64,000 bases of DNA from Chelatococcus sambhunathii (GTDB lineage: Bacteria > Pseudomonadota > Alphaproteobacteria > Rhizobiales > Beijerinckiaceae): the NCBI RefSeq assembly GCF_001418005.1, contig NZ_LIOL01000003.1, forward strand, positions 434,001-498,000, written 5' to 3'. The position numbers and the translations under genes are program-made. The notes below the pieces were generated by a model. That model had not been told where the DNA came from. It saw nothing but the letters and a program-made list of their open reading frames with translations, and ran no database searches. Positions 33,957-36,824 of this stretch are shown here, one piece after another (the first letter of the stretch is position 1; each line of letters begins with the position of its first letter).

Positions 33957-36824
33957 ATGGCGATCGACGACGAGGGCACCATTTTCGACGTCGTGGTGAA
34001 CGGCGAGGGGCAGTTCTCGCTCTGGCCCGTCGGCCGCGGACTGCCGGACGGCTGGCGCACCGCAGGCTTCTCCGGACCTCGCGCCGCATGCCTCGCTCAT
34101 GTCGGCACCGTCTGGCGCGACATGCGCCCCGCCCGGCTCGCCGCCTTCCTCGCCACGGGCCGGGACGAGGCACGGGCAACACTCGCCTGGGGTGGGTGCC
34201 ACGGCGCCGGCGCGCCGGTACACAGCCTCATTGCCGGCCATGCCCGCGCCCGGCCGGACGCACCCGCTGTCATCCAGAACAGCGGCGAGACGAGTTTCGC
34301 CGCCCTCGAGAGCCGGGCGAACCGGCTCGCGCGCCATCTCCTCGCCCTCGGCCTCGCCGCGGAGGAGCGCGTCGGGGTCGCGCTGCCCCGTTCGGCCGAG
34401 ATGATCGCCGCCTTCCTCGCCGTGCTCAAGGCCGGCGGAGCCTTCGTGCCGGTCGATCCCGACCATCCGGCCAAGCGCATCGCCCATGTGCTGAGCGATG
34501 CGGGCGTCGGCATCGTGCTGACGACCCGCAACCTCTCCGCGCGGCTGCCGTCCCTGGCCGGCGCAAGAGTTGTCGCCTGCGACGGGCTTCCCCTGTCGGG
34601 GCTCGACGACAGCGATCCGGGGATTGCCGTCCATCCCGACCAGCTCGCCTATCTCGTCTACACCTCCGGCTCCACCGGGCGGCCGAAGGGCGTCGCCGTG
34701 GCGCACGGGCCGCTCGCCGCCCATTGCCTCGCCACGGGCGAGCTCTACGACATGACCTCGCAATCGCGCGAATTGCATTTCCTGTCCGTCAGCTTCGACG
34801 GCGCGCACGAGCGCTGGATGGTGCCGCTCGCCTTCGGCGGTGCCATCGTGCTGCGCGACCAGGCGCTGTGGAGCGCGGTCGAGACGCTCGATGCCATGGC
34901 GCGCCACGGCGTCACGAATGCCGGCTTTCCGCCGCGCTATCTACACCAGGTGGCGGAATGGGCGCTGGAGACGGGCGAGGCCCCGCCGGTCCGCCTCTAT
35001 TCCTTCGGCGGCGAGGGCATGTCGCCGGCGACCTTCGAGCTCGTCAAGCGAGCGCTGAAGCCGCAATGGCTCATCAACGGCTACGGCCCAACGGAAGCGG
35101 TGATCTCGCCGCTCGCCTGGAAGGTGCCGGCGAGCGCGACCTTTTCGGGGGCCTACGCGCCCATCGGTAAAGGCGTCGGTCCGCGCCAAACCTATGTGCT
35201 CGACGATGATCTTATGCCCATGGCCGACGGCGAGGCGGGCGAGCTGTTCATCGGTGGCGAGGGCCTCGCCCGTGGCTATCACGGCAGGCCGGGCGACACG
35301 GCCGAGCGCTTCCTGCCCGATCCCTTCGCGGGCGCCGGCGGACGCATGTACCGCACGGGCGACGTGGTGCGCCGTCGTGCCGACGGTGTCATCGACTATC
35401 TCGGCCGCCGCGACCAGCAGGTGAAGCTGCGCGGCTTCCGCATCGAGCTCGGCGAGGTGGAGGCGCAGCTTGCCGAACTCGACGGCGTCAGCGCCGCCGC
35501 CGCGGCTTTGCGCGAGGCGCCGGGCGGCACCATGCTCGTCGGCTATGTCGTGCCGGCGGCCGGCGCTGCGGTCGACGCGGCGGTCCTGCGGGCGACGCTC
35601 GCCGCGCGCCTGCCTGGCTACATGGTGCCTTCACGCATCCTCGTCATCGACCGGTTGCCGTTCACGCCCAACGGCAAGCTCGACCGCGACGCCCTGCCGG
35701 CGCCGCAGGCGCATGTCGCGCCGATCCGTCCGCCGCGCACGCCGCTCGAGGTGGACATCGCCGGCATCTGGCGCGAGGTGCTGGGGCTCGCCGACGTCGG
35801 CATCGACGAGAACTTCTTCGAGCTCGGGGGCAATTCGCTCTCGGCGCTCAGGGTGCTCGCGCGCCTGTCGCGGCTCCTGCCCGGCCGGTCCGTCACCATC
35901 GCACAGCTCTTCAACCACCAGACCGTGGCGACGCTTGCCGTCGCGCTCGCGAGTGGAACGGTTGAGGAGCATGCGGTCGTGCACATGCGGCGCACTGGCA
36001 GCCGGCCGATGCTTTATTGCTTCCCGGGCCTCCTCGTCAGCACGCGCGAATATGCCGGGCTCGTCGAGCATCTGGGACCGGACCAGCCGGCGACCGCCTT
36101 CATCTGCTACTCGCTGACCGAGGACAAGACGCGCACCGTCAGTGTCGAGGAACTTGCCGGCCGCTATGCTGACTATATCCGCCGCACCAGCGGCGGGGCC
36201 TGCACGCTGCTCGGCTGGTCGTGGGGTGGTATCCTCGCCTACGAGACGGCGCGGCGGCTCGCGGGCGAGGTCGACATCACCTTCGTCGGCATGCTCGACG
36301 TCTGCGCCCTCGACGCGGAATTCGCCATCGATGCCGAGGTGAGTCTCACGGAAGACGAGAGGGCTGGAATCGAGCGGCGCATCGCGGCCTGGTTGCCGCG
36401 CACGCGCATGCGCGCCGACTGGGAGGGTCTCATCGCCCGCATGGACGCGGAGGTCTACACCCGCTTCCTCGCCTATGTGCTGAACAGCCCCGAGGACCTG
36501 CCGCTCGACGGCCCGGAGATCGGCAGCCGCGAGCACATCTTCTGGACGCTCATCGAGAATGCGATGATCTTCCGCAACTATCGCCTCGAGCGGAGCGACC
36601 TGCCCATCCGCGCCTGGATTGCGGAAAAGTCCATCGAGCGGGGCTTCAGGCTCGTCGACTGGCGGCACTATTCCAGCCGTGTCGAGGCTGTGACGCGGGT
36701 GCCGGACACCGACCATCTCGACATCGTCACGGCCACGGCCTTTCACGCGAGCTTCGCCGAACAGCTTGACGCGAGCCTCCGGAGCCGTCTCCCAGCGCCC
36801 CGCCTTCTTGCTGCGACGCGGTGA
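33957..36824 (+). CDS. Single-module NRPS: MbtH-adenylation-carrier-thioesterase
   Basis: 955-aa nonribosomal peptide synthetase for siderophore assembly. Residues 2-63 are an MbtH-like domain ('GEGQFSLWPVGRGLPDGWRT', 'ACLAHVGTVWRDMRP') fused to the front. Adenylation domain about 88-583: 'LVYTSGSTGRPKGVAV' (A3), 'NGYGPTEAVISP' (A5), 'MYRTGD' (A7), 'RRDQQVKLRGFRIELGEVE' (A8), 'PNGKLDRDALP' (A10). Carrier domain with 'FFELGGNSLSALRVLARL' (phosphopantetheine Ser627). Thioesterase about 685-940 with 'LLGWSWGGILAYETA' (Ser755), Asp781 in 'GMLDVCALD' and His920 in 'PDTDHLDIV'. No condensation domain exists in the protein or the window. Likely activates the N5-acyl-N5-hydroxyornithine unit and the thioesterase oligomerises or cyclises it. 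ATG 33957 fits the MbtH start; 33876 is the alternative. Confidence 0.92.
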   Translation: MAIDDEGTIFDVVVNGEGQFSLWPVGRGLPDGWRTAGFSGPRAACLAHVGTVWRDMRPARLAAFLATGRDEARATLAWGGCHGAGAPVHSLIAGHARARPDAPAVIQNSGETSFAALESRANRLARHLLALGLAAEERVGVALPRSAEMIAAFLAVLKAGGAFVPVDPDHPAKRIAHVLSDAGVGIVLTTRNLSARLPSLAGARVVACDGLPLSGLDDSDPGIAVHPDQLAYLVYTSGSTGRPKGVAVAHGPLAAHCLATGELYDMTSQSRELHFLSVSFDGAHERWMVPLAFGGAIVLRDQALWSAVETLDAMARHGVTNAGFPPRYLHQVAEWALETGEAPPVRLYSFGGEGMSPATFELVKRALKPQWLINGYGPTEAVISPLAWKVPASATFSGAYAPIGKGVGPRQTYVLDDDLMPMADGEAGELFIGGEGLARGYHGRPGDTAERFLPDPFAGAGGRMYRTGDVVRRRADGVIDYLGRRDQQVKLRGFRIELGEVEAQLAELDGVSAAAAALREAPGGTMLVGYVVPAAGAAVDAAVLRATLAARLPGYMVPSRILVIDRLPFTPNGKLDRDALPAPQAHVAPIRPPRTPLEVDIAGIWREVLGLADVGIDENFFELGGNSLSALRVLARLSRLLPGRSVTIAQLFNHQTVATLAVALASGTVEEHAVVHMRRTGSRPMLYCFPGLLVSTREYAGLVEHLGPDQPATAFICYSLTEDKTRTVSVEELAGRYADYIRRTSGGACTLLGWSWGGILAYETARRLAGEVDITFVGMLDVCALDAEFAIDAEVSLTEDERAGIERRIAAWLPRTRMRADWEGLIARMDAEVYTRFLAYVLNSPEDLPLDGPEIGSREHIFWTLIENAMIFRNYRLERSDLPIRAWIAEKSIERGFRLVDWRHYSSRVEAVTRVPDTDHLDIVTATAFHASFAEQLDASLRSRLPAPRLLAATR

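Follow-up and report, generated by a model that had tools for sequence, protein, structure and literature searches.

Can a non-ribosomal peptide synthetase that carries its own MbtH domain and has no condensation (C) domain still assemble a siderophore? This question is raised by a single-module synthetase gene at positions 33957-36824 (forward strand) of a 64,000-nucleotide stretch of Chelatococcus sambhunathii DNA, hereafter the window. An original prediction, made from the sequence alone, held that the first 63 residues of the encoded 955-amino-acid (aa) protein carry an MbtH fingerprint and are fused to the N terminus of an adenylation (A) domain. The analyses described here point to a likely answer: the protein is probably a one-module synthetase of the VbsS kind, in which MbtH assists the A domain of its own chain and a thioesterase (TE) joins the units of a hydroxamate siderophore by ester bonds.

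Domain make-up and relation to VbsS

Both the fingerprint and the N-terminal fusion are confirmed. The Pfam profile PF03621 matches the whole frame at 62 bits (E 3.6e-17; curated cut-off, 27 bits) and the 63-aa segment alone at E 3.7e-19, and a phmmer search with the first 110 aa of the frame recovered the solved MbtH protein PA2412 (E 3.7e-15) together with the fused proteins SlgN1 (1.1e-6) and ObiF1 (0.0013). In comparison to the MbtH consensus of NxExQxSxWP, PxGW, and WTDxRP (PMC6668435), the motifs N.E.Q.SLWP, P.GW, CL, and W-R-DMRP are present, with the canonical T replaced by R. The domain occupies residues 1-58 (33957-34130), with strands at residues 9-15, 20-24, and 33-41 and a helix at 42-56 in an AlphaFold2 model of residues 1-485.

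The remainder of the protein, also on the forward strand, has the order expected of a minimal module. A linker of residues 59-86 (34131-34214) is modelled with low confidence, its predicted local distance difference test score (pLDDT) falling below 50 at residues 58-84 in the 1-485 model and 68-83 in a model of residues 1-583. It leads to the A domain of residues 87-583 (34215-35705; PF00501, PF13193, and TIGR01733), where Lys574 of the NGK motif, presumably catalytic, is present. The peptidyl carrier (PCP) domain (35739-35942; PF00550) has Ser627 in GGNSL, and the full-length TE (36009-36761; PF00975) has Ser755 in GWSWGG and His920; we take these three residues to be functional or catalytic. 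No match to the C-domain profile PF00668 was found in the window protein, and no match to a C profile of the family in the near-identical locus L042.

By sequence comparison, the protein is related to VbsS of Rhizobium, without the N-terminal C domain. In R. leguminosarum WSM1689, a gene for a 72-aa MbtH protein lies 19 bases ahead of one for a 1330-aa C-A-PCP-TE synthetase, which shares its A-PCP-TE core with the window protein at 47% identity (approximately 49-51% in tblastn). Thus, MbtH is separate and the synthetase has a C domain (reading HPxxxDD) in R. leguminosarum, whereas MbtH is fused and the C domain is absent in Chelatococcus. Similarly, tblastn against plasmids gave, among the top matches from outside Chelatococcus, 49-57% identity to Rhizobium and Microvirga gene pairs, with the match split in two pieces; the MbtH gene and the synthetase start overlap by four bases in Microvirga sp. 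VF16. The R. leguminosarum record labels the two products MbtH family protein and non-ribosomal peptide synthetase; the MbtH gene and its neighbours we take to be vbsG, vbsA, and vbsD. VbsS needs VbsG. This dependence is given through a citation in PMC5490192, and the name VbsS is from PMC8776678 and the names VbsO and VbsL from PMC12971057.

Condensation domain and MbtH across the family

GTDB contigs of at least 3 kb were scanned, and the best 80 of 586 confirmed stretches were retained; 38 of these with a strong family TE, together with 8 loci from other tools, made up 46 tree rows, while 7 served as outgroup and 35 stood outside the tree. Ten rows have an N-terminal MbtH and no C domain (five from Chelatococcus, four from Methylobacterium, and one designated G120; nine genomes, since L037 and L045 are one). 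A further 21 have a C domain and a separate MbtH gene, and 13 Rhizobium-type loci have a C domain without an adjacent MbtH (L055-L057, L059-L061, L063, L065, L068, L070, L072, L074, and L078). The last two rows, including one in M. bullatum, are modules that have a C domain and lie next to further synthetase modules. Fused, separate, and MbtH-free forms thus all occur within the VbsS-type family.

The condensation-domain motif is HHxxxDG. It is intact in none of the 34 C-bearing single-module rows, each of which has Pro, Arg, or Ala in place of the second His; both sampled strains of R. leguminosarum (L040 and L054) are among the loci with a broken motif. The two modules beside other synthetase modules keep it. 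As a control, 43 loci from outside the family were examined, in which HHxxxDG is present in 137 of 150 near-complete C domains; five more read HHxxxDA with both His kept, and eight are without the motif. No mention of a broken VbsS motif was found in the available parts of PMC8776678, PMC12971057, PMC12144892, PMC3537567, PMC9694258, PMC7593251, and PMC5490192, a set that does not extend to the primary vicibactin papers.

The absence of the C domain here and the broken motif in the sampled relatives that have one point to assembly by the TE only. In the model for vicibactin, N5-(3-hydroxybutyryl)-N5-hydroxyornithine is formed before loading (PMC12144892). Because a unit of this type is already acylated when loaded, the TE would probably make all bonds, and a C domain would be unneeded because there is no amide bond to form. 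We somewhat favour, over other histories, one in which the C domain lost its motif across the family, and was then shed and replaced by MbtH within the chain in Chelatococcus, Methylobacterium, and G120, with a Rhizobium-type clade dropping MbtH entirely and with TE-only assembly throughout.

In the A-PCP-TE tree, which was flagged for long branches and skewed composition, the Chelatococcus rows form one fully supported clade and G120 with the Methylobacterium rows another. The best tree keeps these two apart, and a single clade of all ten fused rows was not rejected (approximately unbiased test, p 0.198), so that a single origin is neither shown nor rejected. A profile of the C-A linker, built from the relatives with a C domain, detected no remnant in the MbtH-A linkers, scoring those of Chelatococcus and of the relative G002 like shuffled sequences (440 and 658 of 1000 shuffles, respectively, were as good). 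Fusion of VbsG to VbsS by simple deletion is therefore plausible rather than shown.

The siderophore locus and its probable product

The genes around the synthetase are those of iron acquisition, grouped at 21615-36824 from a FecI-like sigma factor through the synthetase itself. On the forward strand are the FecI-like extracytoplasmic function (ECF) sigma factor (21615-22136; PF04542 and PF08281), a FecR-like anti-sigma factor (22236-23249; PF04773), a TonB-dependent receptor with an STN domain (23194-25845; PF00593, PF07715, and PF07660; the true start is probably downstream), a periplasmic iron-siderophore binding protein (25791-26714; PF01497), and a FhuB-like double FecCD permease (26683-28941; PF01032 in two stretches), annotated as fhuB in plasmid pTAD1 of C. 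daeguensis TAD1. On the reverse strand are a MATE exporter (28916-30445; PF01554), a GNAT-family protein (30539-31339; PF00583), an ornithine/lysine N-monooxygenase with a VbsO-like role (31336-32685; PF13434), and a VbsA-like acyltransferase (32682-33803; PF13523). Three of these neighbours are shared with the R. leguminosarum locus, namely the VbsA-like protein (66% identity over 232 aa), the MATE exporter (43%), and the monooxygenase (32%). By homology, the VbsA-like protein would carry out the N5-acylation of hydroxyornithine, and by its content the locus is a FecI/FecR-TonB hydroxamate-siderophore cluster. It probably sits on a megaplasmid; positions 20001-44000 of the window are 98.7% identical to pTAD1 over 82%. 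Elsewhere in the window, a frame at 13133-15370 joins a xylose-isomerase-like TIM barrel to a 4-hydroxyphenylpyruvate dioxygenase (HPPD)-like N-terminal and glyoxalase domain, and an aminoglycoside phosphotransferase (APH)-type protein, an AMP-binding protein, and an acyl-CoA dehydrogenase adjoin one another at 43700-47748, outside the siderophore locus.

From these elements a pathway can be proposed. The MbtH domain would bind the A core of the same chain by means of a Trp23/Trp33 pocket and, in cis, maintain the solubility and activity of the A domain. The monooxygenase and the VbsA-like acyltransferase would supply N5-acyl-N5-hydroxyornithine, which the A domain would activate and load onto the PCP. 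The TE would then join the units by ester bonds and release a hydroxamate siderophore, a cyclic trimer being probable, for export by the MATE protein and re-import by the FecIR-controlled TonB/Fhu system. Here the substrate, the TE-only oligomerisation, the product, and the dependence on MbtH are inferred.

Several observations weigh against the product end of this scheme. A TE that merely hydrolyses would yield a monomer. No VbsL was found in the flanks of the five tabled Chelatococcus loci, the best matches in the genome being 36% identical and on other contigs; VbsL is the epimerase gene by which antiSMASH detects vicibactin clusters (PMC12971057). Likewise, the GNAT protein at the VbsC position in Rhizobium has no relative in the Chelatococcus locus. 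With both absent, vicibactin itself is an unlikely product. The GNAT protein at 30539-31339 was considered as a VbsC-like enzyme and rejected, as comparison with the Rhizobium protein at the VbsC position gave nothing significant. Relatives of it (E 1e-10 or better) occur at 42-43% identity in all three fused-MbtH Methylobacterium loci tested and at 38% in M. bullatum, and in no other tabled locus outside Chelatococcus. It could mark a different product.

The strongest competing explanation is that the product is not an ester oligomer at all, and that a single hydroxamate amino acid is hydrolysed by the TE or transferred to an amine or alcohol of other origin. The absent C domain, the lack of VbsL and of the VbsC-position relative, and the additional GNAT gene all agree with it. 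It is nevertheless the less probable explanation, although it retains appreciable weight: the TE is full length with Ser755, the protein and the R. leguminosarum synthetase share 47% identity, the TonB/Fhu and FecIR genes fit a ferric hydroxamate, and R. leguminosarum has a broken C motif and yet vicibactin is found there (PMC9694258).

The fused MbtH domain and other known fusions

The ester-joining synthetase proposed here also supposes that the fused MbtH domain works on its own A domain. The original prediction suggested docking as in SlgN1, and this was borne out by one AlphaFold2 model and not by the other. In the 1-485 model (26 alignment rows; predicted TM-score (pTM) 0.89), eight SlgN1 chains took Foldseek ranks 1-7 and 10, with TMq 0.82-0.86 over 482-491 columns and a root-mean-square deviation (rmsd) of 2.7-3.3; the other chains reached at most 0.78 among the 50 listed. 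Additionally, alignment with ObiF1 (PDB 6n8e) places its Trp1343 and Trp1353, pocket residues numbered as in PMC6668435, on Trp23 and Trp33 (codons within 34023-34055). All 10 fused rows have retained both tryptophans, including the shortened Methylobacterium domains and wherever the WTDMRP end is missing, whereas among the family's free MbtH proteins the first of them is present in only 17 of 21. The four without it are free MbtH proteins beside the synthetases of Rhodobacterales-type loci L062, L067, L069, and L071, which read SMTR, SVYP, SVHP, and SLAL, respectively, where SxWP is expected. Docking on the A core is predicted in one of the two models.

Other results count against docking or against a working domain. 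In the 1-583 model (34 rows), the MbtH fold itself has a pLDDT of approximately 90 while the overall pTM is 0.72, and SlgN1 chains fit poorly (ranks 38, 43, and 45; rmsd 6.6-7.1; TMt 0.79-0.81). With VIA-align 2, alignments among the 50 entries listed for either model begin at residue 76 at least, and no SlgN1 chain is among those 50. SlgN1 was probably in the AlphaFold2 training data. The ObiF1 pocket residue Ala841 aligns to Pro454 here, proline for alanine, a placement made via an ObiF-type protein on the premise that chain numbering and printed numbering differ throughout by 20, a value set by Trp1343 and Trp1353. Finally, the Ka/Ks (ratio of non-synonymous to synonymous rates) of the MbtH part against G002 is 0.52-0.63 (0.63 for the window protein, with 0.22 for its A domain), and the test for purifying selection against G002 gave p 0.15, showing none.

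Ala449 (in TAERF) had been considered as a pocket residue. Its position is Glu in four of the 13 loci without an adjacent MbtH and Ala in the other nine and in the 33 remaining family rows. The idea of a natural loss of MbtH binding was dropped because Ala841 aligns to Pro454 instead; one of the four Glu genomes, that of L072, has an MbtH elsewhere, beyond the stretch retrieved for that locus.

Another explanation is that the fused domain is a translated and folded but passive leftover, and that the family A domain can work without MbtH. In its favour, a genome-wide search found no MbtH in 12 of the 13 C-bearing genomes without an adjacent gene (L072 being the thirteenth), and the fused Methylobacterium domains are shortened, scoring 20.0-25.9 bits in whole proteins, all below the PF03621 cut-off, and 25.3-31.2 bits in six-frame genome searches, where three of four were just over it. 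The Ka/Ks against G002 points the same way. A home-made MbtH profile of six sequences missed these domains, which Pfam found; in four of four Methylobacterium genomes, the fused domain is the sole MbtH match. Free MbtH genes were also found in the genomes of L046, L053, and L084.

A passive leftover is nonetheless improbable. The two pocket tryptophans are kept even where the WTDMRP end is gone, and ObiF1, which is without WTDxRP, still depends on its MbtH-like protein (MLP), removal of which cuts product counts approximately 50-fold (PMC6668435). Among near Chelatococcus, residues 1-51 have a Ka/Ks of 0.17 against C. caeni and Chelatococcus sp. CO-6; against each of two near relatives there are seven synonymous and four non-synonymous changes (p 0.007, from a small sample made up of two almost identical relatives). 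Taken with the values for G002, these small counts fit a working domain under relaxed constraint, as has been suggested for the fused MbtH of ObiF1 (PMC6668435).

The original prediction made two further suggestions, namely a fixed 1:1 ratio of MbtH to A domain, which follows from the fusion itself, and a possible release from the need for a free MbtH. A search of the window genome found no MbtH besides the fused domain, and one of 17 TIGR01733 matches, this synthetase, is over the cut-off; two phosphopantetheinyl transferase (PF01648) matches lie elsewhere in the genome. MbtH proteins can cross-talk (PMC7593251), so that the domain might serve other synthetases in trans, but this is very improbable given a single A domain over the cut-off and a model that seats MbtH on its own A core. 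In C. caeni, a fused MbtH is accompanied by one free MbtH (L008, 1465-1710), on another contig between oxygenase-like and ABC exporter-like open reading frames (ORFs), whose roles were assigned by eye.

Lastly, the mechanical ORF start of the frame (33876-36824, forward) is uncertain in high-GC DNA, lying at 33876 with the ATG of the 955-aa protein at 33957, but a downstream start that leaves MbtH outside the A-domain chain, or an assembly error, is the least credible explanation of all: 33957 is the annotated start both in pTAD1 (100% identical, 98% covered) and in the Chelatococcus sp. CO-6 homologue, the 10 open codons upstream of the equivalent start in G002 hold no ATG, GTG, or TTG, the in-frame MbtH match reaches 62 bits, and sequencing error is unlikely because the fusion is continuous in four further Chelatococcus versions (L037, identical to L045; L038; L042; and L043).

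The claim that such fusions are rare was likewise supported by sampling. In the order sample, two of 25 MbtH matches lay in fused frames (the window's and G120); the class sample gave one of 18 (the window's), and the phylum sample two of 53 (the window's, along with an ObiF-type protein). These samples overlap and score few candidates per genome, so that weak fused domains can be missed, and the remaining matches were judged free by open-frame length only, except for L028, which was inspected. Open frames of 410 and 394 aa (L013 and L028) were rejected as fusions, as each holds an ordinary free MbtH. Embedded MbtH domains were called rare in 2017, when two clusters besides that of obafluorin were noted (PMC5490192), and among titles and abstract starts of the MbtH-fusion and Chelatococcus literature, no protein of this kind was found.

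For genome mining, the antiSMASH rule for hydroxamate metallophores of the non-ribosomal peptide class asks for Condensation and AMP-binding in one coding sequence (PMC12971057), a clause which, judged from the rule as printed, a C-less cluster fails. Since the built-in and free-standing versions are homologous within a single siderophore family, related A domains offer a comparison of MbtH in trans, in cis, in shortened form, and missing. If the history favoured above is correct, these loci would form a natural series for the role of MbtH and for the minimal domain set of an ester-making synthetase.

Among known fusions, the docking of SlgN1 (streptolydigin; PDB 4gr4 and 4gr5), solved as SlgN1deltaAsub chains, is that matched by one of the two window models. 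SlgN1 presumably has no PCP-TE. It likewise has MbtH N-terminal to the A domain (PMC6668435) and serves another pathway (PMC5490192). Similarly, NikP1 (nikkomycin), from another pathway, is described as having MbtH N-terminally joined to its A domain (PMC6668435 and PMC5490192). ObiF/ObaI (obafluorin; PDB 6n8e) shares MbtH in cis and the two-tryptophan pocket, but its MbtH follows the TE in a chain with a C domain (PMC6668435). The ObiF-type protein of the phylum sample (L170, 1861-7590) has the profile order C-A-PCP, MbtH, A, with its TE unmatched by the family profile. MbtH fusion as such is already known from SlgN1, NikP1, and ObiF, and it is the absent or broken C domain that is the more unusual part of this synthetase family.

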